Of a DNA stretch of 64,000 nt, positions 8,801 through 34,497 are shown piece by piece. Where the stretch lies: positions 1 through 64,000 of the IMG/VR virus record IMGVR_UViG_3300003267_000132. One strand, given 5' to 3'. The DNA comes from a virus. The position numbers and the translations under genes are program-made. The notes beneath the pieces were generated by a model. The model was not told the origin of the DNA. It saw only the letters and a program-made list of their open reading frames with translations, and searched no databases. Within the stretch, counting starts at the first letter, position 1. Each line of letters begins with the position of its first letter.

Positions 8801-8958
8801 GCCGTGTCCGGACCGCCGCCGTCGCTGATGAAGGTGCTGTCGAGGTCGTCGTTGGTACACGCCGCGGCATTGGTCGGGCCGCCATTGAACGTGATGTCGA
8901 ACCGTTCGGACGTAATCTCCGCGTCGGGCCGCAGGGCCGTGGACTGATTGATCGTCAA
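5893..8958 (-). CDS. Large minor tail protein with Ig/fibronectin-like domains
   Basis: 1021 aa and strongly beta-rich, directly downstream of the tape measure gene, the usual place for distal tail proteins. The middle holds fibronectin-III-like segments (for example WITAPTEGQVLHTSGQVSV and RVKIFTLLATTL). Two carbohydrate-binding-module-like blocks follow (around residues 480-760). The C-terminal 200 residues form a compact domain with an RLVIDDYEAPRG motif typical of actinophage minor tail proteins. It likely contributes to host recognition. No enzyme motif was seen. Confidence 0.75.
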   Translation of the reverse strand: MTINQSTALRPDAEITSERFDITFNGGPTNAAACTNDDLDSTFISDGGGPDTANFQVSLGTFTVPTGAQIRSVSVRVRISGSTSQVLAMGLVDGVTGDGIIGSFSTVTGDGTTHTVTGPSHTTGPSGSWTQADIDNLRVRIFGVVGGTIPNIYEIAAIVEWNEAPNSTRTTDDGQTTSGSPIITSPKTLFRRPALGSGTDVGRSITGAGIPAGTTIASIKATTIASGSNGVALPTATINVADASTFAASGRIEIDTSAGRQVVTYTGKTATTFTGCTGGTGNMSTGNVVQQPTMSANASATATGVAITTGTINWITAPTEGQVLHTSGQVSVRWTFYDPDVDTQERYRVKIFTLLATTLPSFDPDTTTATWDSGEVLSSAQQATSDTIPANSYVVYVKVGDSGSGGRYSPWDNNAFSLAIDVPNAPTLSLGLGFERIIAIVTGYGNLAPQGISAEGPGLDLNNSGNPHFTKISNVANLTMNTDSRAEHGQDVITVQATSTGGVTFDSDALPQIVVPVNPGDDWAARCAFRALSNPRTCTLTVTFKTAAGASVGSSATATVLTESTTAWARTGATFNSAALALPVPATARFMVLRFGTQASVANENHIIDSVQVTRNGADTGFQPGGFVAGPNLLSEAQASATTQDGWSNKSNATVQRKANLGFDSGPCWSMTAVAAADMSMQTPPTLPVTPDRFHTFMGWGKPVTTTRQMRFDIFWFKADGSASSTASTTGTAFQPSIAGGWSFMCCVAIAPSDAAYARVVVNVLSPAAGEEHRFHLFGFWEGVSDMWVPAGELHEWFALDRSQDDQVTWDEVEDEEWNFDLGDHTERLVIDDYEAPRGGALWYRARMFAKVSRIDAVNATTEVGDLASPYTIAGPITLESDGNMILRSVEHPELVSRLCVTGTQVESVSTESQSEFQPIGRRNPVVNVDTVHGQRFHITVYFDEDDDWESFKTLRAAQEVMLFKTCYGDRNFEDPSPQEQYYVRFGPEHRTVRLSTNFLADTQYRQHRTVSFDLIEVDRP

Positions 8959-12314: not shown

Positions 12315-12802
12315 CAGAGGCCGATCTGGATGGTGAGCAGCATCCCCGCGAACCCGCCTTCCGGTCCGACGGCAAGGCAGCGCCCGAGCGAGATGTTGGA
12401 GCAGCGCCCGAGAATCTGGTCGTTGCCGTGACCGAGCACGACGGCTTCGACCATGAGCCAGCCGTCGATCATCCGCTGGCGGGCTTCCTGGTCGAGGACG
12501 GTCGGGGTGGGTGGCGTCTTGACGTTCGGCCCGTCAGACACCGAGGCGCAGCGCAGGATCAGAGCGCCGATCTCAAGCGTCCGCACCGAGCCGCAGTTGA
12601 GTCGATTGGTGTTCTCCTGACCGGGACCACCCGAGAAGGCACCGATCATCCCGACGACGACTTCTTCGCACTCCCACACGATCTGCCCGGTGTGGACGTA
12701 CCGGCGTTCGGGGAGAGTCACGCCCTGCGCGGTGAAGTGCGACTCGATGACCGACAGAACGTCGTGGCAGACGTCGTACAGGATGGGTGGGGCGTAACTC
12801 AC
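12314..12802 (-). CDS. Neck / tail-terminator-type protein (putative)
   Basis: 162 aa from a GTG that overlaps the stop of the glycosyltransferase gene (GTGA). The frame is open further upstream but would lie inside that gene, so the coupled GTG is preferred. The N-terminal segment APPILYDVCHDVLSVIESHF is helical and the rest is beta-rich, as in minor tail or neck proteins. It ends on the A of the next gene's ATG. Position makes a head-tail connector or tail terminator likely. Confidence 0.5.
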   Translation of the reverse strand: MSYAPPILYDVCHDVLSVIESHFTAQGVTLPERRYVHTGQIVWECEEVVVGMIGAFSGGPGQENTNRLNCGSVRTLEIGALILRCASVSDGPNVKTPPTPTVLDQEARQRMIDGWLMVEAVVLGHGNDQILGRCSNISLGRCLAVGPEGGFAGMLLTIQIGL

Positions 12803-13932
12803 AGGGCACCACCGTAGGCCCCGGTCACCACGGCTTCGCGGATCGCGACCGCCGCGCGCTGCGCCGCGCGCCCGTCGCGGGTCCATGGCGGGAACACCGA
12901 GTCGACCATGCGTTGGCGACCCAGCCGGTGCTCCGGGTAGTCGGCCAGCGCCGTCGAGATAGCGGCAGCCAGGTCGGCGGGGTCTTCGCAGTGGGGCACA
13001 TCGACCGTCCAGTCCCAGAAGCGCCCGCCATGGTGGACGTCGCGTCGGTACCACGGCGCGGACAGCCAGACAATGGGCTTGCCGGTTACCGCGAACTCGA
13101 CCCCGGTGCTGCTGTTGTCGATGACGTAGCAGTCGGCCCGATCCATGACAGCTTCGAAGGACGGTTCGAACTCGATCCCGTTCATCTCCCACCAGCGTCG
13201 CAGCCGGTCACCCCATCGTGGGTGTGCGTGACCGAACAGCCGGAAGTGCTGCGCCAAGCCGGGCACGTGCCCCCGGAAGTGCTCCCATGCCGAGGTCGTC
13301 TCGTTGATGAGCCGGATATCGGCATGGAAGGACACGCAGACAAGGGGAGGGTCGAACCCTCGCGCAGAAGGTTTGGCGACGATCGACGGAGACGTCCGAC
13401 CCTCCGTGGCGGACCCGGGGAGTCGAACCCGCGGTGTCTCCGGCTTATGAGGCCAGCGTGGAACCGTTTCACCCGTCCGCCTGTCGTCGACCTTAGTCCA
13501 GCGGTCAAGGCGTGGCGACCCGATGGTGATTGCCGGTGCGTCGGGGTAGCGGTCGCGCCAGCGGCGGGCGATCTGCTCGTTGGGGCACAGAAACAGGATG
13601 CAGTCTTCGTGTTCGACCGACCCTGCGTAGGACGGATGGGCGCAGCCCACCGGGTCGCCGTCGTAGGTCTGGCCTGCGCCGTGCTCGACGTAGATGAACG
13701 GGCGGCGGCACGCTCGCGAGTCCTGGAAACTGGCGACGACGATTGGCTGACCGTTGACGGTGGGGTGGCCATGGCGCACGTGTTCGGGGTCGACGCCGCG
13801 ACTGGTCGCGTAGAGCATCAGGTCCTGCCGCACCCACCACGTTCCGCGTTCTTCGGGGTCGAGCGCGAACCAGATGTCGAACAAGTGGTCGGCGTACTGC
13901 GACTCGCTGGCCGAGAAGTCAAGCGGCAGCAC
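12799..13932 (-). CDS. GT-B glycosyltransferase / CDP-glycerol glycerophosphotransferase-like
   Basis: 377 aa from a GTG that overlaps the end of the large glycosyltransferase gene. Motifs match the glycerophosphotransferase / GT-B fold: YVEHGAGQTYDG (about 82-93), ITIGSPRLDRW (136-146), VCVSFHAD (about 199) and DNSSTGVEFAVTGKPIVWL (about 272-290), which binds the nucleotide-activated donor. Between the two Rossmann halves there is an unusually long linker (about 145-195). Residues 151-175 of it coincide with a tRNA-like sequence. It belongs to the glycan island and probably transfers a sugar or polyol phosphate to a glycan or virion protein (inference). Confidence 0.65.
   Translation of the reverse strand: MLPLDFSASESQYADHLFDIWFALDPEERGTWWVRQDLMLYATSRGVDPEHVRHGHPTVNGQPIVVASFQDSRACRRPFIYVEHGAGQTYDGDPVGCAHPSYAGSVEHEDCILFLCPNEQIARRWRDRYPDAPAITIGSPRLDRWTKVDDRRTGETVPRWPHKPETPRVRLPGSATEGRTSPSIVAKPSARGFDPPLVCVSFHADIRLINETTSAWEHFRGHVPGLAQHFRLFGHAHPRWGDRLRRWWEMNGIEFEPSFEAVMDRADCYVIDNSSTGVEFAVTGKPIVWLSAPWYRRDVHHGGRFWDWTVDVPHCEDPADLAAAISTALADYPEHRLGRQRMVDSVFPPWTRDGRAAQRAAVAIREAVVTGAYGGAL
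13407..13481 (-). tRNA. tRNA-Met-like sequence (anticodon CAT), imperfect T arm
   Basis: Reading the minus strand, a 7-bp acceptor stem is perfect (GGCGGAC with GTCCGCC). The D stem pairs 3 of 4 (GTGA/CCAC) with GG in the loop. The anticodon stem CTGGC/GCCGG pairs fully around CTCATAA (anticodon CAT). A TTCGA T-loop is present. The T stem pairs only about 4 bases and needs a bulge or an 8-base loop, so it may be degenerate. It lies wholly inside the reading frame of a glycosyltransferase gene, in a variable linker. It could be a decayed tRNA, a real overlapping tRNA or chance. Confidence 0.4.
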
Positions 13933-16705
13933 GGGTGGCGAGCCGCGCGAAGAGTTCTTCGTAGTGCGGGATGAGCACGTCCCAGGAGATGCCCGCCGCA
14001 ATCCTGTCGGCCTCGGCTGACAGCGATGCGACTTCGGCTGGTCGCGCCGCGAGTTCGTCCATCCGGCGCGCCAGGTCGCGCGGGGACACGTCATGCAGCG
14101 GGATCGGACCGACGAGTGAGTTGAACTCGCGGCGCGACTGGCAAGGCAGGCGCATCCCCGGCGGGAGAATCTGGCGTTGCGGCTCGGCGTCGGGCATGAG
14201 CACGACCAACCCCGACGACAGCGCCTCGTTCATGGGGAGGCTCTGCCCGCCATAGCGGCGGGGAAGCACCAGGACGTCGGTGTCGTCGTAGAGCTGCCAG
14301 TAGTCGGGCATGTCGCCAATGTGGACCTCCAGGTCGATGTGCGCTCCGTAGCGCATCGGTGCCCGGCACGGCTGCATGGATCGGACGACGACGTGCATCG
14401 GTTGGGAGACGAAGCCAAGTGCTTCCCACAGCACTCTGGTCCCGGCGCGGTCATGCGCGGCGGGGTGCCCGATGACGTGCAGGAAGGTCTTCGCCTCGGT
14501 CCGCTGCCGATAGGGCAGCCGCTGCCGGTCGACGCCATGCGGAAGCAGGACCGGGTCGGGCAGTCGCTCCATGTTCCACGTCGTCGGCACCGCCAGCACA
14601 TCGGGGATCGGTGCCCAGTCCGGGGCGAGGATGTGATGGGTGAACTCGTAGTTCGCCACAAGAATCGTGTGAATTTTCATATCGGCGCACAGCCGAGTGA
14701 ACCAGGGCAGGTAGAACGTCTCGCACCCGAGCACCACGTCGAGATCCGCGAGCCAGTTGCGGACGTCGACCTCAAAGATGCGGTCATGGCGCGCCACCGC
14801 CAGCGTGGCCGGGTTGTACTCCCGCCAGCTACAAGGGTACGGGGACAGATCCCCCATGTCGATCCCGAACACCTTGGCCGGTTGCAGGTGGCGCGCTAAC
14901 TCCGACGTCTGCACCGCCAGCCCGCGTCGGTCGGCGCGTGCACCGAAGAGACCGACCCGGATGGCGCGCGATATTTCGCGCGGCGCGACGTAGGCGGCGG
15001 GCACGTCGCGGTGGGGATTGGGGGCACCGAACGGGACCATCGGCGTGTCGTAGGCCCACCGCATCTCGTACTTGGACTCACCCTCGCGCCCGTCGAGATG
15101 CGTCGACCGCTTCATGTCGCCCGACGGCGCGTAGATCCAGGTGCGGAACCGCTCCCAGCCTTCGTAGCCGTACTCCTGCCAGTGAGTGACGAGCACCCCG
15201 TACATGGAGTCCTCGATCATCGTCCGCGCTTCTCGCCCGAAGAACCGGGTGAGCATGTCGCGGTAGAAGTCGGTTCGCGCCAGGTGTGGTCGCTGGCTCC
15301 ACTGCACGGTGCGCAGTAACGGCGCTCCCGCGACGTCATGCGGCTCGGCGTCGAGAACGAGATGGCGATGCGGCTCCAGGATCGACGCTTCGTGATGGAG
15401 CCGGATCAGGTTGCAGGTGCCTTCCTGTAACCCGTCGAGCAGCGATTGCCACGGCAACTGCTCACCGAACAGCGGCGTGTCGTGTTCGACGAACAGGATG
15501 GCCGGGGTGCGCACCAGATCGAGCACCCGCCGGGTCATCTCGGCCTGATGCAGATGCTCGTCGTGCAGGACCGGCAGGACGTTGCGCCAGCGGTTGTTGG
15601 CCAGCCAGAGCAACCGCCGCGTGTACTCCGCGTAGTCGGCCCGCCGCCCTTCCTGTTCGGCGCGAACCCCGTCGACCATGACCAGGATCTCGGCGCGCGG
15701 CAGGCGTTCCCGCACCGACGCGACGGTCTGTTCAATGACCGAGGTGTCCGGGTGCGACGGAATCGGGGACGTCGGGATCAGAACGGTGATCCGGTCGTCG
15801 ACAGTCGGTTCGCTGTCGTCGGTTTGTCGGACGCTCACCAGGTCGTCGCGCAGCGCGTATGCCAGTTCCCGCTTGTGGTGCTGCCACCACGCGAAGATGC
15901 GGTTGGCGTTGGCGGGCCACTCGCGGACGAGTTCGTCGATGGCCTGGTCGATGTCGGTCCATGACCGCAGGACAGGCAACGGATGCTCGTCACCGAACAA
16001 GGTCTGCCAGTACTCGGGCGACTCGACGATGGGGATGCACCCGGCTTCCAGAGCTTCGAAGAGCCGGAAGGTGTCCGGGGTCTGCGGCCCCGCGGGACAG
16101 GGAGCGACCTTCGCCGCGACCATGCCCGCCGCGTACTCCGCGATGTCGACCCCTTCCATGAACCCCGCGGTTTCGATGACGCGCCCGTCGCCACGCCTAC
16201 GCCGTGAGAGCGCACCGGCAAGTTCCTGGCGGGACCGATGCGAGATCTGACCCGCGAAGAACCAGTTGAGCGGCTTGTCCAGGGGGTCCGCTGGCAGATG
16301 CTCGCGGTAGGACCACGCCCAACCGTCCCCCAGGGGCCTGTCTGTGCCCGTCACGCTGCCCGCGACCGGCGTCTGCACCCAGCGACGCATCTGCACGTTC
16401 GCCAGCTTGTGGCGGGGAAATACGCCCTCCTCGTCACCGGTCAGGATCACCAGCGCCCACCCCAACCGGTAGAGCCATGTCGCGATTCGGTCGGCGTCTT
16501 GGACATGCCAGCGCGCCGGGATGACGACGACCGCACCGGGAGCGTCCGCGGGGAGCGCGTCAAAGCCACCTTCGTGGTGGCGGAAGGTCGGGTGTCCCGG
16601 CGCGCGCCAGAGGGTGCCCGCCATGAGTTCTTCCAGCAGACACTGATCGGCATACCCGCGGGCACGGATGTCGTCGTGCAGCGAGAGCCAGAGGACGTCG
16701 ATCAT
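13919..16705 (-). CDS. Three-domain glycosyltransferase
   Basis: 928 aa from an ATG overlapping the methyltransferase stop (ATGA). The N-terminal third (about 1-310) resembles exostosin/GT47-like enzymes, with TFRLFEALEAGCIPIVESPEYW as the donor-site signature. The middle (about 315-600) is GT2-like, with ITVLIPTSPIPSHPDT, RAEILVMVDG and LFVEHDTPLF. The C-terminal third (about 605-928) is a GT-B/GT4 domain with VGLFGARADRRG, LLPHGVDRQRLP, DVLVLPRRYGGQSLPMNEA and a SWDVLIPHYEELF end. Such a chain suggests stepwise synthesis of a short glycan by one polypeptide, placed in the structural region beside methyltransferases. Confidence 0.8.
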   Translation of the reverse strand: MIDVLWLSLHDDIRARGYADQCLLEELMAGTLWRAPGHPTFRHHEGGFDALPADAPGAVVVIPARWHVQDADRIATWLYRLGWALVILTGDEEGVFPRHKLANVQMRRWVQTPVAGSVTGTDRPLGDGWAWSYREHLPADPLDKPLNWFFAGQISHRSRQELAGALSRRRRGDGRVIETAGFMEGVDIAEYAAGMVAAKVAPCPAGPQTPDTFRLFEALEAGCIPIVESPEYWQTLFGDEHPLPVLRSWTDIDQAIDELVREWPANANRIFAWWQHHKRELAYALRDDLVSVRQTDDSEPTVDDRITVLIPTSPIPSHPDTSVIEQTVASVRERLPRAEILVMVDGVRAEQEGRRADYAEYTRRLLWLANNRWRNVLPVLHDEHLHQAEMTRRVLDLVRTPAILFVEHDTPLFGEQLPWQSLLDGLQEGTCNLIRLHHEASILEPHRHLVLDAEPHDVAGAPLLRTVQWSQRPHLARTDFYRDMLTRFFGREARTMIEDSMYGVLVTHWQEYGYEGWERFRTWIYAPSGDMKRSTHLDGREGESKYEMRWAYDTPMVPFGAPNPHRDVPAAYVAPREISRAIRVGLFGARADRRGLAVQTSELARHLQPAKVFGIDMGDLSPYPCSWREYNPATLAVARHDRIFEVDVRNWLADLDVVLGCETFYLPWFTRLCADMKIHTILVANYEFTHHILAPDWAPIPDVLAVPTTWNMERLPDPVLLPHGVDRQRLPYRQRTEAKTFLHVIGHPAAHDRAGTRVLWEALGFVSQPMHVVVRSMQPCRAPMRYGAHIDLEVHIGDMPDYWQLYDDTDVLVLPRRYGGQSLPMNEALSSGLVVLMPDAEPQRQILPPGMRLPCQSRREFNSLVGPIPLHDVSPRDLARRMDELAARPAEVASLSAEADRIAAGISWDVLIPHYEELFARLATRAAA

Positions 16706-17328
16706 GGTCGGACCCTTCCGACGGTCCAGAGCCAGTCGGGGAAGATCTTGCCGCGCTCCTGGGTCACGTCGACCAGTCCCGCCAGGCGGAACCACTCGGC
16801 CACGACCGCGGGGGGTACATGCCCTTCATCTTCGAACTCCCGGTCGTAGACCGTCTGGATGACCAACGAGCCGCCTGGCCGCAGGTAGTGGGCGACGTTG
16901 GCGATGATGGCGAGCGCGGTCGGGCGCAGGACGTGCTGGAGGACAGCCACCGAGTACGCGGCTTCCAGGGCGAAGACCGGGAGCGGTCCTTGCGCGGGGC
17001 TGCACACGAAGTGGACTCGGTCGGTCAGTCGCCGCCGGTACGACTCCTGATGGGCGTACTCCAACAGCCGCACCGAGAAGTCGATGCCATAGACCTCGGC
17101 ACCGGGGAACGCTTCCGCGATGGGAAGGGTCAGCCTGCCGATGCCGCAGCCGACTTCCATGACGGACCGGACATCGAAGGGCAGCAACTGGCGCAGCAGG
17201 TCGACGCACTTGGTCGTCGTGGCGTCGTAGTCGTCGGGGTCGACCGACCAGACCGCGAACCGCGCTTCCGCCAGCGAGTCGGCCTGCCGGTCCCAATATG
17301 CCGGGGATGACTCCTGCTGCAAGCTCAC
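16702..17328 (-). CDS. Class I SAM-dependent methyltransferase
   Basis: 208 aa from a GTG that overlaps the FkbM gene stop (GTGA). The long in-frame extension upstream lies inside that gene and was discarded. Motif I VMEVGCGIGRLTLPIAEAF (about 50-68), motif II acidic loop AEVYGIDFS, and a later LRPGGSLVIQTV give a typical small-molecule methyltransferase fold. Located between two glycan genes, it probably methylates a sugar or nucleotide sugar. The acceptor is unknown. Confidence 0.8.
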   Translation of the reverse strand: MSLQQESSPAYWDRQADSLAEARFAVWSVDPDDYDATTTKCVDLLRQLLPFDVRSVMEVGCGIGRLTLPIAEAFPGAEVYGIDFSVRLLEYAHQESYRRRLTDRVHFVCSPAQGPLPVFALEAAYSVAVLQHVLRPTALAIIANVAHYLRPGGSLVIQTVYDREFEDEGHVPPAVVAEWFRLAGLVDVTQERGKIFPDWLWTVGRVRP

Positions 17329-18083
17329 TTCGGCTTCCGACCCAACTGGTGCCAGAACACCCAGTGCTCTTCGTGGTCGACGGCCAGGCACATGCCGACG
17401 TAGCCGACATCGGCCATGAAGTGCAGGAGGTCGGTCGGGGTGTCGCCGTACAACTCGTCCATGAATTCGGGGTGCATCGACAGGTAGACGAGTGGCTTCA
17501 TGCCGTGTAGGAGGACCCGCGCCCCGCGCAGCACCCGCAACTCCGACCCCTCGACGTCCATGGTGATCACGTCGGGGATGATGTTGGTCTGGCGCACGAA
17601 GTCGGTCAGGGTGATCTGCGGGGTCACGTCGGTTTCTTGCGCCAGGTGCCGGAAACCATGGTCCCCGATTACCGGTAATTCGGTCGCGCACCGGGGCCAC
17701 CCCGACTCGGGATCGTGGGCGAGCAACAACAATCCGGCGTCGTCGAGCAACGCCGCATCACTCGTCGCGTCGGATGCGAACCCGACCCAGGTCGCCAGCG
17801 GGTGCCGCAAGTTGTTGGCGTCCCAGATGGCCTTGATGTTCGGCCAGACCTTGGGGTTGGGTTCGAACAGGCACACCCCCCCGTTCGGCCAAACCCACGA
17901 CGCGATGAGCGCCGAAATGTCGCCTTCCTCGGCCCCGATGTCGTACACGATGTCGCCGCGCCGAATGTTGGCGTTCATCGAGTCGAGCCGTTCGACTTCC
18001 CATCCCGTCTGCCACTCCGGCCGCGCCGCCCGGTGCTCCGGGAGCATGAGGTTCCAGCGCCCGTTGATCTTCGTGTCGATCAT
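17325..18083 (-). CDS. FkbM-family methyltransferase
   Basis: 252 aa. SAM motif DIVYDIGAEEGDISALIASW, acidic position CLFEPNP, and the FkbM-type VITMDVEGSELRVLRGA segment with a preceding LTDFVRQ. FkbM enzymes O-methylate sugars or similar hydroxyls. The ATG chosen overlaps the stop of the Pro-rich protein gene. Seven codons earlier there is another in-frame start. Part of a coupled methyltransferase-glycosyltransferase series. Confidence 0.8.
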   Translation of the reverse strand: MIDTKINGRWNLMLPEHRAARPEWQTGWEVERLDSMNANIRRGDIVYDIGAEEGDISALIASWVWPNGGVCLFEPNPKVWPNIKAIWDANNLRHPLATWVGFASDATSDAALLDDAGLLLLAHDPESGWPRCATELPVIGDHGFRHLAQETDVTPQITLTDFVRQTNIIPDVITMDVEGSELRVLRGARVLLHGMKPLVYLSMHPEFMDELYGDTPTDLLHFMADVGYVGMCLAVDHEEHWVFWHQLGRKPK

Positions 18084-18394
18084 TGCATCGGGTACCGCTC
18101 GCACTGCCAGTCAATCCAGGGCTTGTCTTCCTGGAGTTGCGCGCAGAGGCCCTTGTAGTACTCATCTTCGAACGGTCGCTGGATCGGTGGCTCAACGATT
18201 GGCGGCACATCGACCACAGGTGCAACGGTGGGTGGCGCGATGACTGGGGGAGGGGTGATTACCGGTGGTTCGACGGTCGCGGGAATGGCTTGAGGAATGA
18301 TTGCCGGGGGTTCTGCTGTCTTCGCCGACCCCGCGGGTGCGGCTGGCATGACGATGGACGCCAGCGCGACGGTCACCGCTACGACGTACTTCAT
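18080..18394 (-). CDS. Secreted Pro-rich small protein
   Basis: 104 aa. The N-terminus MKYVVAVTVALASIVMPAAP is a clear signal peptide, probably cleaved near APAGSA. Then comes a Pro/Val/Ala-rich repeat (PPVITPPPVIAPPTVAPVV, about 43-72) and a C-terminal charged tail with two Cys. Probably exported and extended across the cell wall. Function unknown. It is coupled to the nuclease gene before it and the FkbM gene after it. Confidence 0.65.
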   Translation of the reverse strand: MKYVVAVTVALASIVMPAAPAGSAKTAEPPAIIPQAIPATVEPPVITPPPVIAPPTVAPVVDVPPIVEPPIQRPFEDEYYKGLCAQLQEDKPWIDWQCERYPMQ

Positions 18395-18738
18395 CGTGGA
18401 CCTCCTGCGTAGTGGACGGCGTGACCGTCCGCGACCATCTGCTCATTGACGTTCATGCCGTCGTCCCGGATCAGCACCGCCAGATAGCGACCGTACTTCT
18501 CGCGGTGGTCCTTGATGGTCCGCACGGTAACGACCCGCTCGACCAGGTGGTTGGCGGGCGAGAGTAGTTGCACCAGATGCGACGTCGCGGCGTCACCTGC
18601 GGCCGTGCCGTGCTCAGGGGCATTGATGCCGTGCAGCCGAAGCGTCACGTCGATTCGCACGTCGAGTCCCAGGTCCAGCCGGGCATGGATCGTGTCACCG
18701 TCGACCACCCGCGTCACCTCACCCCGATACTCGTACAT
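18391..18738 (-). CDS. Thermonuclease (SNase-like)
   Basis: 115 aa. Staphylococcal-nuclease fold with VVDGDTIHARLDLG (D13, D15), LRLHGINAPEHG (R34, E42) and REKYGRYLAVL (R84), which correspond to the catalytic Arg-Glu-Arg and Ca2+-binding Asp positions. No signal peptide. The start shares an A with the stop of the glycosyltransferase gene (TGATG). It likely cleaves DNA or RNA with Ca2+. Host DNA breakdown is possible. Its place within a glycan island is unusual. Confidence 0.85.
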   Translation of the reverse strand: MYEYRGEVTRVVDGDTIHARLDLGLDVRIDVTLRLHGINAPEHGTAAGDAATSHLVQLLSPANHLVERVVTVRTIKDHREKYGRYLAVLIRDDGMNVNEQMVADGHAVHYAGGPR

Positions 18739-19709
18739 CAGATCATCCCCTCCGACCGCAGCAGGTGTTCCAGTTGCTGCATCCGCACTTCGTAGGTGTG
18801 GTGCTCCAGGACGTGGGCACGACCAGCGCGGCGGACCTCTTCTCGTTCGTCGGCATTGGCCAGGTAGTAGGCGATCGTCGCGTCGAGTTCGTCCCACTGC
18901 CCCAAGAGCCACAGCGCCAGGTGCTTGCCGTCGGTGAAATGCTCGTCAATCCCGTCGACCCAGGGATGGACCAGGAATCCGCCCCGCCCGAGGGTTTCGG
19001 GGATGCGGTCGGACCAGTAGCGGGCCAGCGGTCCATCGCCGCGGGGGATCAGGCAGGAGTCTCCGACGACGACCTTGGTCGACGCGTAGACGGCGTTGAG
19101 CAGCGCGCCGCGGACGGGCTGGTTGGGGTGCGCTGGCCAGAACCGCGCGTTCCATCGGGTGCGCAGATGTTCGACGAGTCGGGGTCGATGGGTCCACTCC
19201 GGGTGGTAGCCGCCCCGCCATGATCCGACAAACGCCACGTCGGCAGCCAGCGCGGCGCGCGGCTCCTGCGGTCGGCAGTCGAACCCGGCGACGGCTGGTG
19301 GGAACCAGCGGTGATTGATCCCCACCCTGCGCCACTCGTCGTCGTGCCCGCCATCCGCAGTACACAGCAGGTTGACGCGGAAGAACGGCTCGACCGAAAT
19401 CTGGTCTTGGCGGTCCAGCCCCCACCATCGATCCAGGTGATAGCCGACGGTCGGCACGCTGTGGTCCCGCAGGACCTCGATCATCTGATGACGCTCGTCC
19501 AGCGTCCCCCCGGAAACGGCAAGGCCGTACGTTTGCGTCCACAGCAGGAAGTCGGCGTTGACCGCCATGACCGCGGACGGCACGTCGACGGCGCGGATCT
19601 CCCCTTCCTGCAAGCGGATGACGTCGTGGCCGAGCGTTTCCAGAGCTTCGGCGATGTGGCTCTCGGTCGAGAACGTCGGGCGGTGGTTGCCCAGGTAGGC
19701 GACTATCAC
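18738..19709 (-). CDS. GT-B glycosyltransferase (CgeB-like)
   Basis: About 323 aa from a GTG (VIVAYLGNHRP). An ATG at 19751 would add 14 residues. Features include VIVAYLGNH with FSTESHIAEALETLGHDV, a central VAFVGSWRGGYHPEW, then PETLGRGGFLVHPWVDG and a final acidic patch before AGRAHVLEHHTYEVRMQQLEH. These match the glycosyltransferase-1-2 / CgeB type of GT-B enzymes. First gene of the minus-strand glycan set, facing away from two plus-strand genes with only about 40 bases between. Confidence 0.75.
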   Translation of the reverse strand: MIVAYLGNHRPTFSTESHIAEALETLGHDVIRLQEGEIRAVDVPSAVMAVNADFLLWTQTYGLAVSGGTLDERHQMIEVLRDHSVPTVGYHLDRWWGLDRQDQISVEPFFRVNLLCTADGGHDDEWRRVGINHRWFPPAVAGFDCRPQEPRAALAADVAFVGSWRGGYHPEWTHRPRLVEHLRTRWNARFWPAHPNQPVRGALLNAVYASTKVVVGDSCLIPRGDGPLARYWSDRIPETLGRGGFLVHPWVDGIDEHFTDGKHLALWLLGQWDELDATIAYYLANADEREEVRRAGRAHVLEHHTYEVRMQQLEHLLRSEGMI

Positions 19710-19750
19710 GCCGGGCAGACTAACCGGCCTGAGGTCCGCGCAGGGGGACA

Positions 19751-20083
19751 ATGCTGGCGGTACCGTTCGCGGTCATGGCAGCCACTCGCGTCAAGCACGG
19801 CACACTCGTCGCGAACCAGATCGACACGGTGTCGTTCGACTTCCGGTACCGCACGGTCGAAGTCGTCAACCTCGACAGCAGCGCCCGCATCTACTTCACG
19901 ACCGACGGGTCGGCACCAAGCGTGGCCGGGGATGACGTCGATGTCGTCCCCCCGTCATCGGCCCTGCGTGTCGTGGTCGGACGACAGTCCGGTGGCCCAG
20001 CGACGCAGGGAACGACGGTGAAGTTGGTCTCGACCGGCACCCCTGCATACAGCGTCAGCGGTGACGACGAGTCGTCGGAATGA
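19751..20083 (+). CDS. Small beta-rich virion-type protein (plus strand)
   Basis: 110 aa. The ATG at 19751 has a good Shine-Dalgarno (AGGGGG) just upstream. A second in-frame ATG at 19775 is an alternative. The sequence TVSFDFRYRTVEVVNLDSS followed by IYFTTDGSAPSVAGDD looks like a small beta-sandwich decoration protein. It overlaps the next plus-strand gene by 4 bases. Function unknown. Confidence 0.65.
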   Translation: MLAVPFAVMAATRVKHGTLVANQIDTVSFDFRYRTVEVVNLDSSARIYFTTDGSAPSVAGDDVDVVPPSSALRVVVGRQSGGPATQGTTVKLVSTGTPAYSVSGDDESSE

Positions 20084-20835
20084 CACCCGAGCGCAGGTTC
20101 CTGGGTGGCGGTGGCGGTGCCGCTGGCGCGCTCGTCCCGGCACTGTCGAGCTACGCCTACCGCGGCATCGTCGGAACCTTCGCGGTGTCCGCCAGCGAGC
20201 AGACGATCTACACCGTGCCCAGCGGCAAGAAGGCGCTTCTGTTTCGACTCCAGTACTTCTACTCGTCGGGCACGCCGTCACCGCTTGTTTATCTGGTGCC
20301 CAGCGGCCAGTCAGCCAACGATCCGAACAACAAGGCGTCGACGCCGTCACTTAGTGCTGGCCCGTCCAACCCGTCGGCGGACCTGTACTCGGTCCTGTCG
20401 GCGGGCGACACCGTGCAGGTCAACACGCAGAGCTTCAACGCCAGCAGCCTGAACTACGCACTCAACGTCATCGAGTTCCCGTCCAGTGAGCCGATGTTCG
20501 GCGTGTTTCGTTCCCAGCTTGCATCCGGTGCCGACAACACCGTCTACACCGTTCCGACCGGCAAGAGCGCCCTCGTCGCCCCGATCATCGAGCCGGTCCT
20601 GCGTGCCGGGTGGGTCTACAACAACGCGGTGTCTTCGCAGGCGCTCCGCTGGAAGGTGACACCCAGCGGCGGGTCACTCACTCAGATCCGCAGCGACACC
20701 TACGGATCGAAGGCGACCGGCTCGCCTCTCAACGTGTCATTCCCGGCTGGTCTCACTTTGGGGGCTGGTGACGCGCTGGTCGTAAATCCGAACGGCAGCG
20801 GGTTCAACGTCTGGCTCGTCGGCTTGGAGCACTGA
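20080..20835 (+). CDS. Virion surface protein with duplicated YTVPxGK module (plus strand)
   Basis: 251 aa. Gly-rich N-terminus, then two copies of a beta module marked by IYTVPSGKKALLFRLQ (about residue 43) and VYTVPTGKSALVAPI (about 153). The same motif recurs in the protein encoded at 32157-33128, so these are probably related capsid or tail decoration domains. It ends LTLGAGDALVVNPNGSG, a common closing strand of phage decoration proteins. It is one of few rightward genes and converges with the minus-strand genes. Confidence 0.7.
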   Translation: MTPERRFLGGGGGAAGALVPALSSYAYRGIVGTFAVSASEQTIYTVPSGKKALLFRLQYFYSSGTPSPLVYLVPSGQSANDPNNKASTPSLSAGPSNPSADLYSVLSAGDTVQVNTQSFNASSLNYALNVIEFPSSEPMFGVFRSQLASGADNTVYTVPTGKSALVAPIIEPVLRAGWVYNNAVSSQALRWKVTPSGGSLTQIRSDTYGSKATGSPLNVSFPAGLTLGAGDALVVNPNGSGFNVWLVGLEH

Positions 20836-21031
20836 TACGTCCCACTGCCGGTGCGGGCACGGCTGGCGGTCGCACGCTGGACGGTGGTGCTGGCGGTGCG
20901 GTGATGAATGCCTGCCACCCGATCAGGACTTCGACTCCGAAGAAGGTGACCCGCCACCGCCAGTTCCGAAGGATGGTCAGGTGTGGCGCGGACGCAGGAA
21001 GACAACCCCCCGCTACGAGTCGGGTGACCAC
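20804..21031 (-). CDS. Small hypothetical protein (possible)
   Basis: A 75-codon frame from a GTG inside the end of the Cys-rich gene. A central RNWRWRVTFFGVEVLIGWQ stretch has real-protein character and is followed by a Pro/Ala-rich tail. Its stop overlaps the 3' end of the convergent plus-strand gene by about 30 bases. Uncertain. Confidence 0.35.
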   Translation of the reverse strand: MVTRLVAGGCLPASAPHLTILRNWRWRVTFFGVEVLIGWQAFITAPPAPPSSVRPPAVPAPAVGRISAPSRRARR

Positions 21032-21177
21032 TCGTCGAACATCTGACAGGGGCATCCCGGCGACTTGCATGGCACCCGGTCCCAGTGACCCCGCTCGTAG
21101 TTCCAGACCAGGTGCGCCGACCGCCTATGCCAGCAGGCTTGGCACAGTTCCCAGGGGTGGACGTTGCGGTCAGTCAC
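21013..21177 (-). CDS. Zinc-knuckle-like microprotein
   Basis: 54 aa starting at a GTG that overlaps the end of the adaptor gene. Contains CQACWHRRSAH and CKSPGCPCQMF, two Cys/His pairs that could bind one zinc. Typical of the very small actinophage proteins with CxxC pairs. Function unknown. Confidence 0.65.
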   Translation of the reverse strand: MTDRNVHPWELCQACWHRRSAHLVWNYERGHWDRVPCKSPGCPCQMFDEWSPDS

Positions 21178-22312
21178 CAGTCCGACGGACCCGACGACCC
21201 TTGTCCGGACGCAGCACCGTCGACCGCCGCGACAGCTTGTTCGGGTTCACCGAACGCAGGAACAGGTCGACTTCGTACAGCCCCGTCTTACCTTCGTCCA
21301 AGAAGGCCATCGGGTCGAGCACGACCGCCGTCACACCCTGGCGGGTGATCTGGGTGACCCGCTCCGGCAGGTTGCACGCTCCGACCGTCTCCGGCTGACA
21401 TGCCAGCGCCAGTTCGCATCCCAGCCGCGCCGCGGCGCGCATCCCCGCCACCGGCGGGGGCTGGCCGTACAGGAAGGTGACCTCCCACGTCCCGACTTCG
21501 GTCGTCGGAAGGTCCATCCGCTGGCAGCACGGCCACCCCTGCGCGTTCCCGTTCGCGTCGGCCAGACGCACCAGGTAGCGGTCGTCGTCCACGCGGTACT
21601 CCGACGACGGCAGCACGACTCCATCCATGCGGACTTCGGTCACCCGCTGGATCGGATACGCGCCAAGGGTGATCTCGGCGATCGAGCCGCACCCGGTGCG
21701 TTCGGTCCGATTGCAGGAGCAGAACCCCCACGACGGCGACCAACTCCAAGAGCCAGGAACGGGCCAGTAGGTCCCGTAGGGTGAGTAGGCCGGAATCGGG
21801 CGGCCCCGGTCGCCAGAAGCGTGCTGCGCGCAGGGACGGACCGTCGCCTGGCAGGTGCCGGGGAACTGGCGGCCCGACAGCTGGAACAGCACGTCGCTGG
21901 CCGCTTGCAGGCAGTCCATGAGCAGCAGCGAGTCGAAGGCGTAGTCGTCGCATGGTGTGCATACGTCGGTCGTCGTCGCCCACGGCTCGCACGTGAATGC
22001 GCCGGGCGACTGGAAGCTGATCGACCCGCCGTCGACCACGTCCCACTGTTCGTTGTCACAGACCGACACGCCGTTGATCACGCCGCACCAGTGGGCCGTC
22101 CACGCCCCCAGGGGAGCGAGGGCCGGGACCGAGTAGCTGTACTCGTAATGGCCAAGCGACAAGAAGGTAGGGGTGACCGGCCCGACAATCAGGACGTTGT
22201 TGGGGTCGAAGATCTGGATGGTCGGGTTGACCGGCGCGACCAGCGCCCCGGTGCCGTCGCGGTAGAACGCGTCAAGCACGATGGTGTTGCCGCGGGCGAC
22301 TCGCTGGCTCAT
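21170..22312 (-). CDS. Head-to-tail adaptor-like protein with Ig-like N-terminus
   Basis: 380 aa. Residues 1-105 look like an Ig-type beta-domain (VLDAFYRDGTGALVAPVNP, APLGAWTAHW). The rest is rich in Cys and Trp, with helical DYAFDSLLLMDCLQAASDVLFQL and AARLGCELALAC segments as in phage adaptor proteins. Large Cys-rich adaptors of this type occur in actinophages, but the identification is tentative. Its end overlaps the zinc-knuckle gene. Confidence 0.5.
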   Translation of the reverse strand: MSQRVARGNTIVLDAFYRDGTGALVAPVNPTIQIFDPNNVLIVGPVTPTFLSLGHYEYSYSVPALAPLGAWTAHWCGVINGVSVCDNEQWDVVDGGSISFQSPGAFTCEPWATTTDVCTPCDDYAFDSLLLMDCLQAASDVLFQLSGRQFPGTCQATVRPCAQHASGDRGRPIPAYSPYGTYWPVPGSWSWSPSWGFCSCNRTERTGCGSIAEITLGAYPIQRVTEVRMDGVVLPSSEYRVDDDRYLVRLADANGNAQGWPCCQRMDLPTTEVGTWEVTFLYGQPPPVAGMRAAARLGCELALACQPETVGACNLPERVTQITRQGVTAVVLDPMAFLDEGKTGLYEVDLFLRSVNPNKLSRRSTVLRPDKGRRVRRTGD

Positions 22313-22602
22313 GTCCGCGCCACGTCGCAGCTCTTACACGGACAGTCGCAGGCCCCTTCATGGGTGACCATCGTCATCGCGCAGTAGTGGCGCGCCACCT
22401 GTCGAATCATGGCTTCGGTGACCTCGACGATGGTCCCGCTTTCGTCTCGCACGTACAGCATCAGGTTCAAGCCGTCGCCGTACCGGTACTTCAACTGGTT
22501 CAGGCAGTCGCCGCAGTGCATACAGACCGCCAGGTAGCTCGGTGACGCGCCAAGGTCCTGGATCTGCAGCATCCCGATCCCGGGAACGGGAATCTCACCC
22601 AC
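22309..22602 (-). CDS. Cys-rich small protein
   Basis: 97 aa with CMHCGDC in the middle and CDCPCKSCD near the C-terminus, separated by a helix ending in HYC. Two zinc-binding clusters are likely. Its stop overlaps the adaptor gene start (ATGA). Role unknown. Confidence 0.65.
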   Translation of the reverse strand: MGEIPVPGIGMLQIQDLGASPSYLAVCMHCGDCLNQLKYRYGDGLNLMLYVRDESGTIVEVTEAMIRQVARHYCAMTMVTHEGACDCPCKSCDVART

Positions 22603-22611
22603 GATGCGATC

Positions 22612-22806
22612 CTACGCTGGCGCGCAGGGTCCGTACGTCTGCTGCTCCATGACGTCCAGACCCTCCAGTCGCTGCATAGTGTGAAGGCCACCGACGACCT
22701 CAATCCGCCAGGTCGCATCCGGCAGCATGAACATCTGGCCGCACCCTGGGCAGAAGTCTTCGACTCGGGCGCTCAGGTCGATGGGGACCGGCTCCACCTC
22801 GGGCAT
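22612..22806 (-). CDS. Zinc-ribbon-like small protein
   Basis: 64 aa. The ATG at 22806 has a strong GAGGAGG Shine-Dalgarno at good spacing, so it is preferred over an upstream in-frame start at 22830. CPGCGQMFMLPDATWRIEV followed by a late YGPC suggests a treble-clef or ribbon. Function unknown. Confidence 0.65.
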   Translation of the reverse strand: MPEVEPVPIDLSARVEDFCPGCGQMFMLPDATWRIEVVGGLHTMQRLEGLDVMEQQTYGPCAPA

Positions 22807-22820
22807 CTTCCGCTTCCTCC

Positions 22821-23153
22821 TCAGCCGCACAACCGCGCGCCGTCAATGTCCAGTGCGGTGATGTCCGGGTTGAGCAGCGTCCGGGTTTCCCGCCCCTGCC
22901 GATCGATCTCGATCGTCGCGACGACCACACCCCGCGCATTCACACCTTCGTAGGCAACTTCGTCACCGCGGCGGAGAAAGACCTCGATCCAGCCGTCCGG
23001 GTACACCGGATAGCCGGTCGACGGCCGCACACCGGGTGCGCCCCAGTAGGTCGTGTCGCCACCCACCGATGTCAGGTACGTCACGACTCCCGGTGGGTCG
23101 CTTTCCAGCAGCGGCAGCGTGCGTACACCCGGCCTGGGTACCGGCACCTTCAC
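22821..23153 (-). CDS. Hypothetical beta-rich protein
   Basis: 110 aa, predicted mostly beta (VVTYLTSVGGDTTYWGAPG, WIEVFLRRGDEVAYEGVNARG). It is coupled to the methyltransferase gene upstream by a 4-base overlap. No recognisable family. A structural or glycan-related role is possible from its neighbours. Confidence 0.6.
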   Translation of the reverse strand: MKVPVPRPGVRTLPLLESDPPGVVTYLTSVGGDTTYWGAPGVRPSTGYPVYPDGWIEVFLRRGDEVAYEGVNARGVVVATIEIDRQGRETRTLLNPDITALDIDGARLCG

Positions 23154-23740
23154 CGCTTGACCGCCTGCATCTGCACGACCATGTCGGACACCACGTTCAC
23201 ATAATGGCGGATCGCGAACTCCCGGTCGCGGTCTTCAGCCCGGTCCCACGGCTCGTTGAGCATCAGGTCCATGCTGGCGATCTTGAAGTCGGCAACGATT
23301 GGGTAGTGGTCGAGCCGCTGCGATTCCCGCCACTGGCGCTGCACGTACAGGTAGCTGGCTTCGCTCATAGCGCGCAGATGAGTCGGGTCCTGCCAACAGC
23401 GGACCGATGTCCAGTACGGGTGAATCATGGTGACGTGCGCGCCGTGGTTGCAGACCCGCCATAGCTCGTTCCAGAACTTGACGAGGTCGGGGACGTGCTC
23501 GACGAAGTGGGAGCAGTAGACCTGACCGACCGAGTCATCCTTGAACGGCCATGGCGTCGAGAACAGGTCGGCCTGGACGTAACCGGGATCGTCAGCGGGC
23601 CACGCGTTCGGGATCACGATGTCGACGCCGGTAAACCCCGGCTGGCGGTTCTGGCCACACCCCAGGTCCAGCCGCCATGCATCCTTGTCGATCACCAAGT
23701 AGGTGCCGTTATCCGTTGCGGCGACAGCAGTCGGGTTCAC
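23150..23740 (-). CDS. Class I methyltransferase
   Basis: 196 aa, GTG start overlapping the upstream stop. Motif I is DLGCGQNRQPGFTGVDI. The acidic residue follows in TGVDIV, and YCSHFVEHVPDLVKFWNELWRV matches motif IV of SAM-dependent methyltransferases of the UbiE/DUF sugar type. It sits among surface-protein and glycosyltransferase genes. Probable sugar or small-molecule substrate. Confidence 0.75.
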   Translation of the reverse strand: MNPTAVAATDNGTYLVIDKDAWRLDLGCGQNRQPGFTGVDIVIPNAWPADDPGYVQADLFSTPWPFKDDSVGQVYCSHFVEHVPDLVKFWNELWRVCNHGAHVTMIHPYWTSVRCWQDPTHLRAMSEASYLYVQRQWRESQRLDHYPIVADFKIASMDLMLNEPWDRAEDRDREFAIRHYVNVVSDMVVQMQAVKR

Positions 23741-24051
23741 GCGACGACCGTCATATCGAGTGGTTCGGCGTAACGCATTCCCGGCGCGATGTCAGCGTGG
23801 CGGCCCGCACTGCATTCGTGGACCGACGCGCGTTTGAACACATACGGGTCGCCGGTCGACGGGTCCTTCGCGCAGAAGTCGATAGCCGCCATCCGTCGAT
23901 CCTGGTCGAACTCGACCACGGTGCGCGCCCACTGCGGTCGCCGGTCCAGCGGTTGGTGCAGTTCACCGTGAGCGTCACATTCGGTGCATGACCAAGCGAC
24001 GACGGCAGCGTCTTCGCCGGTCATCTCGACCGTCAGGGTAAGGCCGGTCAT
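23737..24051 (-). CDS. Small Cys-containing protein
   Basis: 104 aa. CTECDAHGELH (about 22-32) with later Cys residues at about 60 and 80 could form one zinc site. Mixed alpha/beta. It overlaps genes on both sides by 4 bases. Function unknown. Confidence 0.6.
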   Translation of the reverse strand: MTGLTLTVEMTGEDAAVVAWSCTECDAHGELHQPLDRRPQWARTVVEFDQDRRMAAIDFCAKDPSTGDPYVFKRASVHECSAGRHADIAPGMRYAEPLDMTVVA

Positions 24052-24254
24052 TCGCCGGGCGGGGTGCCCGCGTGTTCATGGACGACTTCGCCGTCCCACT
24101 GAAACGTGATCGTGCCGTCGTCGTCGAGCGTCGCAGTCCACCGTTCCCAGTCGGTGTCGATGATGTCCGCCCATGCCCCACACTCGCTGCACGTGAACCG
24201 CGTGAAACCGAGCAGCGGGGGTGTGATTGGCGCTGGCGCTGCGTTGAGTTCCAT
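24048..24254 (-). CDS. Small zinc-binding-type protein
   Basis: 68 aa. FTCSECGAWADIIDT is a CxxC pair followed by a short beta-sheet region (TATLDDDGTITFQWDG) and an EHAG end. The ATG shares its A with the preceding stop (TGATG). Unknown role. Confidence 0.6.
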   Translation of the reverse strand: MELNAAPAPITPPLLGFTRFTCSECGAWADIIDTDWERWTATLDDDGTITFQWDGEVVHEHAGTPPGE

Positions 24255-24967
24255 CACGTTCCCGTCCACTGCGTCCGCGTCTCGACGGTGATGTCGTACG
24301 CCTTGGAGTTGAAGTCGAGGATGAATCCGCTGAGCATGGAGAATAGCGACGACGCCGAGTTCGCCGCGGAACCGCTGCCGCTGTTCGTGTTGTTGTGCAG
24401 CCCGTAGCGCCGGTGAATCTGGTCGGACGACGTCGGGGTGAAGTTCGTGTCGGTGATCTGGAAGCTGGCCGTGATGGTGCCGGTGTTGCCCGACAGACCG
24501 TATGACGGGCCTGAAACGAACGTGTTGGTGACGAATCGCACGAAGTGGGTCGTGGCGTTGGTGCCGGTGTTGAACTGGTGGGTCGAGTTCGCGACCGCCG
24601 CCGTCCCGGAGTCCACCCCGCCACCGACGACGCCGCCTGCGTTGGATGACGTGCCGCCGCCGCCAGGAATGTTCGACATCTGGAATGTGCGCCGGGCTGC
24701 GATCTCCAAGCCGCTGTTGACGGCGAGGTTGTGTTCGGCGGGCAGGTAGAGCGCGCCGTCATAGATCAGCGGGTCGCGTCCGAACCAGTCCAGTTCAACG
24801 GCGTCGACGAGTTCCTTCAGCGTCGAACGTCCGTCGACTGGCTTGATGCGCGCACCGAAGACGACGCCCTTGTCGACACCGCCCTGACGCATCTCGGCGC
24901 GGACCGTCGCTTCCGCTTCGGCCCAGGCCCCGGCGATGCGGTCAAGGACTCCTACGTCGTCTCGCAT
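24254..24967 (-). CDS. Virion-associated Gly/Ser/Thr-rich protein
   Basis: 237 aa. A helical N-terminus (about 1-55), then a Gly-rich stretch (about 100-120), then a Thr/Ser/Asn-rich beta domain with alternating hydrophobic strands. Such composition is typical of tail or capsid appendages. It is preceded by the GT2-type glycosyltransferase gene, whose end it overlaps by 16 bases, so it could be a glycosylation substrate (inference). Confidence 0.55.
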   Translation of the reverse strand: MRDDVGVLDRIAGAWAEAEATVRAEMRQGGVDKGVVFGARIKPVDGRSTLKELVDAVELDWFGRDPLIYDGALYLPAEHNLAVNSGLEIAARRTFQMSNIPGGGGTSSNAGGVVGGGVDSGTAAVANSTHQFNTGTNATTHFVRFVTNTFVSGPSYGLSGNTGTITASFQITDTNFTPTSSDQIHRRYGLHNNTNSGSGSAANSASSLFSMLSGFILDFNSKAYDITVETRTQWTGT

Positions 24968-25758
24968 GGCTGTGCTCCTTCGCAGCCAGGGCAGTGCCCC
25001 GGTGAGTCCTCATGGAAGCCGTGGTGCTCGCAGAACCAGCCGTCGCGGGTCGCGACGCGCAGGTAGCCGGTGAAATGTCCGCGGTGGATGGGCAGGACCG
25101 CCATGTGGGCGCACTCGATGTCGGGGAGTGCCCATACGTCGATCCCCATGTCGCGCACGCGGTCGAAGAACCAGACGTCTTCACCCATCGCTTCGCCGTT
25201 GCGCGGGTCGATGTTCTGCACGAACCACAACTCGTCGTCGAACTTGTCGCGCATGTTGCGGAGCAGGTCGATCCGCATGAGCACCGCACCCAGCCCGAGA
25301 CCCCCGACGCGGCATGGGTTGGGTTCGTCGACGATGCCCCAGTAGGGGCGGATCTTCTTCGGTTCCTCCGGGGGCCAGAGCCACGTGACCGGCTCGAACG
25401 GCGGGTGCTTCTTGTAGTACACGCCGCCGCACACCTGCTCCCCGGAATCGAGCAGGAACCGCGCCATCGCCGCGACCCCGGCAGGTGGGATGCAGGTGTC
25501 CTGGTCGGTCCACATCACCAAGTCGGCGTTGGACCCGCAGGCGAAGCGGGCAAGACTGTTGCGGGACACGTCGATATACGGCATCCCGCCATCTTGCGCG
25601 TCGATGTCGAACCCTTCATGCAGGGTGCGGATCTTGACCGCGGTGTCGGCCATGTCGGCTGGCGGGAAGGTTCCGCCATAGAGCGGGCGGACGAACAGGA
25701 TCTTGGCGATACCCGGCGTCCGTTCCGGCGGGTCGGCAGGCGCTTCCAAGAAGTTCAT
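24952..25758 (-). CDS. GT2-like glycosyltransferase
   Basis: 268 aa. A GT-A fold signature: KILFVRPLYGGTFPP at the start, LVMWTDQDTCIPPAG with a DxD-like DQD (85-87) for metal and nucleotide-sugar binding, and GEDVWFFDRVRDMGI near residue 195 as the acceptor-side acidic motif. The C-terminus carries CEHHGF and HCPGCEG, likely a zinc ribbon. Predicted to transfer a sugar to a virion or host glycan. Confidence 0.75.
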   Translation of the reverse strand: MNFLEAPADPPERTPGIAKILFVRPLYGGTFPPADMADTAVKIRTLHEGFDIDAQDGGMPYIDVSRNSLARFACGSNADLVMWTDQDTCIPPAGVAAMARFLLDSGEQVCGGVYYKKHPPFEPVTWLWPPEEPKKIRPYWGIVDEPNPCRVGGLGLGAVLMRIDLLRNMRDKFDDELWFVQNIDPRNGEAMGEDVWFFDRVRDMGIDVWALPDIECAHMAVLPIHRGHFTGYLRVATRDGWFCEHHGFHEDSPGHCPGCEGAQPCETT

Positions 25759-26414: not shown

Positions 26415-26627
26415 TCAGACCCCGTACAGGTTGTCGAAGTAGGCGACGACCTCGGCAACGGTCGCGTCGGGATTGTCCGCTTCGACGTGGCTCACGCAGT
26501 ATCGGACGCGGCGCGCCAAGTCGGCTTCGGGATCGACTTCGATGATCAACGGTTGGCCGGTGTCGGTGCCGTCGTTGATGTAGCTGACGACACCTGTCGT
26601 TGGATCGGTCGCTTTCAACCACGCCAT
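26415..26627 (-). CDS. Small hypothetical protein
   Basis: 70 aa from an ATG that shares a base with the tail protein stop. Begins MAWLKATDPTTGVVSYIND and ends with an acidic helix. No recognisable domain. Coupled to the repeat-containing protein gene. Confidence 0.5.
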   Translation of the reverse strand: MAWLKATDPTTGVVSYINDGTDTGQPLIIEVDPEADLARRVRYCVSHVEADNPDATVAEVVAYFDNLYGV

Positions 26628-33135: not shown

Positions 33136-33807
33136 TCACGACGCGCTCAGCGTCTGCGCACCGCAGTGCGGCGTCGGGAGCGAGTTGGTCGGGAGCGACG
33201 CATAGCAGGACGTGCTCGCCACCGGCCAGTCGTTCCCCGGCCCGTTGAACCAGTTCGGGTTCTCCTGTCCCCACCCGTCCAGCACCGACAGCTGCACGCC
33301 GTCTTCCAGCTTCCGGCCACCGAAGGTCCAGTAGGTGCGGGGGAACACGAACTGCTCGTACGCGAAGGTGTCGTCCCCACCGCCATGCTGTCGTCGCTTC
33401 ATCCACACTTCCAGCGACACACCTGACGGGGTGGGGTCGATCCCGACCCGCGGGGCGGCATAGCCGGTGCGCTCCCCCGACCGCAAGACCGTGCCGCCCC
33501 GCAGAAGTTCGAACAACTCGGGGTCGTAGGGACAGATGACCAGGTTCAGCGTGACCCGCTTCAGCAGGTCGTCGGTGCGAAAACTGGCGCAGATGTCGCC
33601 CCGGCCGTTCTTGACCGTGACGTCGGTGCCCTTCTCGACTTCTTCGGTGTACGTCAGTTCGATCATGCCATCGCTGACATACAGGTTGTTCGGTCCTGGT
33701 GCCGGGACGCCGATCGCGTCGAGACGCGCCAGACGGATCGCGCAGGCTTGCAGCACGACGGGACACGTATTCCCCGAATCCGCTGGCGGGCCGACGACGA
33801 TCGGCAT
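33136..33807 (-). CDS. Major tail protein paralogue 2
   Basis: 223 aa. Clearly homologous over its whole length to the gene just upstream: shared CPVVLQACA, GPNNLYVSDGMIELTYTEE, ICPYDPELFELLRGGTVL and PNWFNGPGNDWPVAST. This family and position match actinophage major tail subunits. The duplication could provide two tail-tube proteins or a decorated variant. Confidence 0.7.
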   Translation of the reverse strand: MPIVVGPPADSGNTCPVVLQACAIRLARLDAIGVPAPGPNNLYVSDGMIELTYTEEVEKGTDVTVKNGRGDICASFRTDDLLKRVTLNLVICPYDPELFELLRGGTVLRSGERTGYAAPRVGIDPTPSGVSLEVWMKRRQHGGGDDTFAYEQFVFPRTYWTFGGRKLEDGVQLSVLDGWGQENPNWFNGPGNDWPVASTSCYASLPTNSLPTPHCGAQTLSAS

Positions 33808-33828
33808 CGAGCATCAGACCCCCGTAGA

Positions 33829-34473: not shown

Positions 34474-34497
34474 GTCAGGTCGCTCCTTGCGAGGACA

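Follow-up and report, generated by a model that had tools for sequence, protein, structure and literature searches.

Virion glycosylation has reportedly been described in 2023 for a few mycobacteriophages. According to two later papers, C-terminal O-glycans are attached to the capsid and tail tube proteins of mycobacteriophages such as Che8 (Freeman et al. 2023, Cell Host Microbe 31:1216, cited by PMC12363180 and PMC12619734), and the first of the two reports the mycobacteriophage glycan coat as a shield of the virions from antibodies (PMC12363180). In the chlorovirus PBCV-1, which offers a precedent for divided labour between enzymes, A064R combines two rhamnosyltransferases with a methyltransferase, A061L adds a second methyl group, and AO75L is the proposed xylosyltransferase of the capsid glycan (PMC9614988).

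The present study concerns a cluster of glycosyltransferase (GT) and methyltransferase genes in an uncultured virus record, IMGVR_UViG_3300003267_000132, of which 64,000 of the 66,303 bases were analysed (the window). A module of the genes A, B, MT, C, D and E, of which MT is optional, is conserved on the same strand in about 30 contigs of uncultured phages, where it lies between the head genes and the tape-measure gene, and the presence of gene A is accompanied by a serine at the C-terminal end of the capsid and tail tube proteins. We consider it probable, at roughly 80%, that this is a mobile module for the assembly of a methylated glycan at the C-terminal serine of major virion proteins, the glycan, its sugars and the linkage all being putative.

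A C-terminal serine that accompanies gene A

A small residue followed by a terminal serine is found in 5 of the 60 predicted genes of the window. The major capsid (hexamer) protein (35446-37326, minus strand) ends in ...LCVSGS, with the codon of the proposed acceptor serine at 35449-35451. The phrog_779 protein (34498-35388, minus strand; ...VGGAS, serine codon 34501-34503) has its gene directly behind that of the hexamer protein and is presumed to be the vertex or pentamer protein. Tail tube protein 1 (phrog_792; 33829-34473, minus strand) ends in ...TLPAS with the serine codon at 33832-33834, tail tube protein 2 (33136-33807, minus strand) in ...TLSAS with the codon at 33139-33141, and the tape measure protein in RAS. 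The two tail tube proteins are tandem paralogues with 75% identity, both with -AS ends. The acceptor signal (33136-37326) lies outside the interval 12799-25758 to which an earlier note, made from the DNA letters alone, had drawn attention, and it had not been seen there.

Homologues of the capsid and tail tube proteins were collected regardless of the module, the whole records were searched for A, and contigs truncated close to the capsid gene were excluded. The collection was scanned with a 4-row alignment of major capsid proteins, one of 12 rows being too diverse. Among 78 records with capsids of the phrog_777 family, the serine end occurs in 29/29 with A and in 2/49 without it, and 27 of the 29 capsids accompanied by A carry the stricter end [AG]S, referred to below as the tag. 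When only unique capsid sequences are counted, the serine end is found in 27/27 with A as opposed to 2/40 without (Fisher p 1e-16, a value that ignores relatedness), and the strict tag in 25/27 as opposed to 2/40. Unique tail tubes follow the same pattern, with the strict tag in 22/28 with A and 0/31 without. The background of [AG]S-type ends in the other genes of the A-bearing loci is 9/289.

The relatedness of the capsids was taken into account with a tree from which the C terminus had been left out; five changes of A and six of the tag are counted on it. The tag follows A in two well-supported independent pairs, and in five pairs on the best tree. The contigs L118/L119 and L110/L114 have neither A nor the tag and stand beside relatives that carry A. 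Gene E was also considered as a predictor of the tag and was rejected, since L118/L119 carry E alone and no tag.

The two tagged capsids without A are those of the Gordonia phages GMA2 and Mareelih (Forza group), and no homologue of gene A was found by tblastn over the phage collection that includes GMA2 and Forza. The structural region of GMA2 encodes a TylF-like methyltransferase and two GT2-like proteins unrelated to the GTs of the module, and that of Forza its own unrelated GTs, gp93 and gp94. In GMA2, the tag is present in 3/25 inspected proteins, which are encoded by consecutive genes, namely the hexamer protein (ATGS), the next (STGS) and the following one (VTGS); in Forza it is present on the same three genes and on two further proteins. 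The Che8 capsid protein ends in TGS and its tail tube protein in DGS, and its GTs, gp108-110, gave no E-value below 0.01 against the profiles of A-E or the other GT and methyltransferase genes of the window. Unrelated families within the module phages agree as well, as in contig L002 the major capsid protein ends in PASS and the phrog_2491 tail tube in VVAS, and the phrog_117 tail tube of L003 ends in PTGS.

Several observations weigh against the proposed glycosylation of the serine end. The association is comparative, and two well-supported pairs, or five on the best tree, are too few for a significant sign test. The presumed vertex proteins are tagged in just 10/19 loci with A. The major capsid protein of L003, which has A and a capsid of another family, is untagged (YITV), as is the tail tube of L048 (VATT), and L147 has a tagged tail tube together with E, with no A found in that fragment. 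The Streptomyces phage Yara, with a distant A, has the ends GLNS and AQTA, and the major capsid protein of Myrna ends in RKA, the neighbouring gp98 in AGGS. Finally, the capsids without A belong mostly to one clade, and relatives share their ends by descent. These last two points would also suit the explanation that the serine end is a marker of capsid lineage, or a site at which another protein docks, and that the GT module does something else. We regard this as improbable, as the end recurs on non-homologous hexamer and vertex proteins, on several tail tube families and on the phrog_10-type capsid protein of L002, occurs in Che8 and GMA2/Forza together with unrelated enzymes, and is missing in the sister phages that lack A.

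There is a somewhat better than even case that -[AG]S-COOH at the C terminus is a general acceptor code of phage virion glycosylation, which would be gained and lost with the GT genes on hexamer, vertex and tail tube proteins of unrelated families and be served by several non-homologous enzyme sets, the transferable module with its exostosin-like, TagF-like and FkbM enzymes being one of these.

The enzymes and what they may build

The interval 12799-25758 contains four GT and three methyltransferase genes, all on the minus strand. Its compact part consists, in transcription order, of A, a nuclease and a secreted-looking peptide, B, the class I methyltransferase gene MT, C-D and E. Between the start of the nuclease gene (18391-18738) and position 12799 the genes are closely spaced, each overlapping the next by 1 to 14 nucleotides except at a single gap of 2 nucleotides. 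The nuclease, which is SNase-like, and the peptide, which is rich in proline (18080-18394), are encoded between A and B. Profile and fold comparisons bear out the earlier count of four GT genes, one of them with three catalytic domains, and profile matches that of three methyltransferases, two adjoining and the third apart.

Gene A (18738-19709, minus strand) encodes a GT4-like glycosyltransferase of the GT-B type (PF13524, phrog_28745), which scores 71.2 bits against PF13524, above the gathering cut-off of 25, and whose fold is GT-B with a Z-score of 21.7 to GT4 enzymes. The same fold is shared with the T4 alpha-glucosyltransferase (Z 20.9), and the phage has QueC and GTP cyclohydrolase genes of the deazaguanine pathway, so the GTs might glycosylate the bases of the phage DNA, as the T4 enzyme does. 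This is the least likely of the alternatives, since GT4 enzymes acting on small metabolites score equally or higher against A, no gene for hydroxymethyl-pyrimidine synthesis was recognised among the scanned proteins (a search that was not exhaustive), and the association with protein ends would be left unexplained.

Gene B (17325-18083, minus strand) encodes an FkbM-type methyltransferase (PF05050, E-value 9e-10), for which O-methylation of a sugar is predicted, and MT (16702-17322, minus strand) a class I S-adenosylmethionine-dependent methyltransferase (Methyltransf_25, E-value 8e-14). The third methyltransferase (23150-23740, minus strand; Methyltransf_11, E-value 6e-8, phrog_6636) stands apart from the compact module; its PHROG is also represented in the module of L002. 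The fourth GT gene (24952-25758, minus strand) encodes a GT-A-like glycosyltransferase (phrog_34859/12406; PHROG glycosyltransferase, E-value 2e-8). Both lie upstream of the head-tail adaptor gene (21170-22312) and are putative module members at most.

The fused C-D protein (13919-16705, minus strand) has 928 amino acids and three catalytic domains. The first domain of C (residues 1-295; 15821-16705, minus strand) is of the GT-B, GT47/exostosin type and closest to the chlorovirus AO75L, the second (residues 296-545; 15071-15820, minus strand) adopts a GT-A fold and has an invariant E-x-D motif, which reads EHD in the window, and D (residues 578-928; 13919-14974, minus strand) is a GT4-like GT-B domain. 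An AlphaFold2 model of residues 1-577, based on 14 sequences (mean predicted local distance difference test score 85, predicted template modelling score 0.87), comprises two domains, the first at about residues 20-290. This first domain has AO75L as its nearest structure (Z 16.1 over 228 residues, root-mean-square deviation 3.6 Å), and a sequence search of the PDB with its profile gives AO75L and exostosins (E-value 1.6e-4); the score against PF03016 (exostosin) is 24.4 bits, under the Pfam gathering cut-off of 33.4. The second domain is clearly of the GT-A fold, with human B4GALNT1 as the best match (Z 18.2, 190 residues) and no exostosin among the matches listed. When the whole modelled chain was used in Foldseek, the human EXT1/EXT2 complex came first (E-value 1e-11), with a poor overall superposition (template modelling score 0.34), and the comparison is therefore limited to the order of a GT47-like domain followed by a GT-A domain.

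The fusion was seen once, in the window; other loci with both C and D (L002, L003 and others) encode them in separate genes. It may be an assembly artefact that joined two frames. The fused protein had no tblastn match in the INPHARED phages and no confirmed relative in the GTDB contigs, and a scan with this protein alone gave only two close viral relatives, which is why profiles were used. A mixed alignment of C and D was discarded because its D rows were only 13-22% identical to the window; they had apparently been aligned with the N-terminal domain of C, both being GT-B.

Gene E (12799-13932, minus strand) encodes a transferase resembling TagF/TarL, in which an HG and an HP motif are invariant. 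It scores 20.5 bits against PF04464 (TagF/TarL), under the Pfam gathering cut-off of 22.1, and its profile finds TarL (E-value 2.9e-5) and Cps3D (0.014) among solved structures; the invariant residues are H83-G84 and H236-P237. Given the likeness to TarL/TagF, a polyol-phosphate may be transferred in place of a sugar. This similarity to teichoic-acid polymerases also speaks for another target, on which the earlier note had not decided, namely that the enzymes remodel the cell-wall glycans of the host in superinfection exclusion or serotype conversion, with the serine end unrelated; GTs of temperate phages are known to alter host serotypes (PMC12619734). Yet no membrane-type hydrophobic segment is predicted in any of the GT or methyltransferase proteins of the window, late structural genes surround these genes in the loci that were seen, and E alone is not accompanied by the tag in L118/L119. 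The arrangement also differs from a Gtr-type operon, with its membrane-anchored GTs and flippase beside an integrase, in the lack of membrane segments and in its place within the structural cluster; an integrase was not searched for. As remodelling of the host wall would leave both the capsid and tail tube ends that track A and the match to Che8 unexplained, it is judged a poor candidate, and the virion is favoured as target by the co-occurrence of the module with the terminal [AG]S and by the same ends in Che8, which is reportedly glycosylated.

With the virion proteins as target, soluble phage enzymes would, during late expression, link a sugar to the serine at the C terminus of the most abundant virion proteins, namely the hexamer, the presumed vertex and the tail tube proteins. 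Gene A, which we consider to have an even chance of encoding the initiating enzyme, would make or license the first link; it is proposed for this step because its presence tracks the tag and that of E alone does not. C (GT47-like and GT-A), D (GT4) and E (TagF-like) would lengthen the chain, and the FkbM-type and class I methyltransferases would cap it with O-methyl groups, a methylated chain being suggested by the neighbouring methyltransferase genes. From this gene content we infer the chemistry, the order in which the enzymes act and the advantage gained, which would be a head and tail tube coated with glycan. Protection from antibodies is an unlikely purpose here, as environmental phages meet no immune system. 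When ten more proteins of the window phage were scanned, no gene for nucleotide-sugar synthesis was found.

The module in other phages and its surroundings

A profile scan with gene A gave 27 loci. According to profile searches, the usual order is A-(B)-(MT)-(C)-D-E on one strand, following the capsid or head-tail adaptor gene and preceding the tape-measure gene; B or C is missing from some loci, and the order is altered in a few (L003, L039). The two viral contigs related to C-D, L002 and L003, both have A, B, C and D, and L003 has E in addition. Their major capsid proteins belong to the phrog_10 family, not to phrog_777. In the tree of A, the gene of L003 is nevertheless sister to that of L016, which has a phrog_777 capsid, with a support of 100/99, and sister A genes beside different capsids indicate that the module moves between phages.

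Since the gene order recurs in about 30 contigs, chance is excluded for the core of the module. The glycan island of the earlier note is confirmed as an observation, and its interpretation is partly supported. The interval as a whole is shared with genes unrelated to glycans, namely the head-tail adaptor, the nuclease and a plus-strand pair (19751-20835), and includes the two putative members upstream of the adaptor. The plus-strand genes, 19751-20083 (which matches phrog_32632) and 20080-20835, are located between A and the adaptor within an otherwise minus-strand late operon.

Some loci contain further genes. An HNH endonuclease gene is inserted within the module of L003 (9414-10004). In L021 (10492-12249), D shares one open frame with an extra C-terminal domain of about 240 amino acids, so there is more than one kind of fusion among the module genes. 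L002 has a PIG-L type deacetylase inside the module (8875-9480), hinting at an N-acetylated sugar in the glycan of that phage.

The host is likely to be actinobacterial, because two contigs with A were binned as Acidimicrobiia and the capsid protein of the window is related to the 'major capsid hexamer protein' of actinophages, which fits the earlier guess of an actinophage. A DNA-level search of the INPHARED phages with the window gave no match, and a scan for promoters and terminators was uninformative. Elsewhere in the window, 26627-28591 encodes a protein of 654 amino acids with eight imperfect repeats of about 20 amino acids (VGTVNIGGDTVLRWKPF-like), spaced mostly by 60-63 nucleotides. 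GTP cyclohydrolase I and two QueC homologues (54634-55215, 57391-57951 and 62488-63660) form part of the preQ0/7-deazaguanine pathway and probably serve DNA modification.

Comparison with known glycosylation systems

If the acceptor code is general, the tag can be read from the genome and would predict which phages have sugar-coated virions and which of their proteins carry the sugar. The module would extend the idea of virion glycosylation to a broad range of actinobacterial phages that are uncultured, and provide a simple sequence signature of the acceptor. With the natural losses (L118/L119, L110/L114) and the independent cases (GMA2/Forza, Che8), the rule can be put to the test in cultured phages of Gordonia and mycobacteria.

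In PBCV-1, soluble viral GTs and methyltransferases (A064R, A075L, A111/114R) make the capsid glycan, and some of the enzymes have three domains. The first domain of C is closest to A075L/AO75L, and a GT47-like domain near a chlorovirus capsid-glycan enzyme suggests parallel solutions for coating capsids in bacterial and algal viruses. However, PBCV-1 differs in its N-glycans, its unrelated capsid protein and the other domain sets of its three-domain proteins, and there is no evidence of a common ancestry of the two systems. Human EXT1/EXT2 (GT47 and GT64) have the same order as C, a GT-B (GT47) domain followed by a GT-A domain in one chain, but the GT-A half of C fits B4GALNT1 best.

The Gordonia phages GMA2 and Forza resemble the window phage in that GTs adjoin the tail genes and that the hexamer gene and the next two genes are tagged, with ends of the kind TGS/VGS/SGS, and differ in that their enzymes are of the GT2 type where recognised. 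The likeness to the mycobacteriophages Che8, Corndog and Myrna consists in phage-encoded GTs with capsid and tail tube as targets, putative ones in the window phage. Capsid and tail tube of Che8 both end in -GS, like the SGS of the window capsid protein and the PAS and SAS of its tail tubes, whereas the Che8 GTs are without convincing sequence similarity to A-E. Compared with Che8, the enzyme set is larger and has GT47-like, TagF-like and FkbM enzymes among its members; its genes are part of the structural operon and occur in uncultured phages linked to Acidimicrobiia. On the best reading, the locus would thus work like the virion glycosylation of mycobacteriophages, the new elements being an enzyme set that differs from theirs, is larger and can be transferred, and a tag in the protein sequence that goes along with this set.

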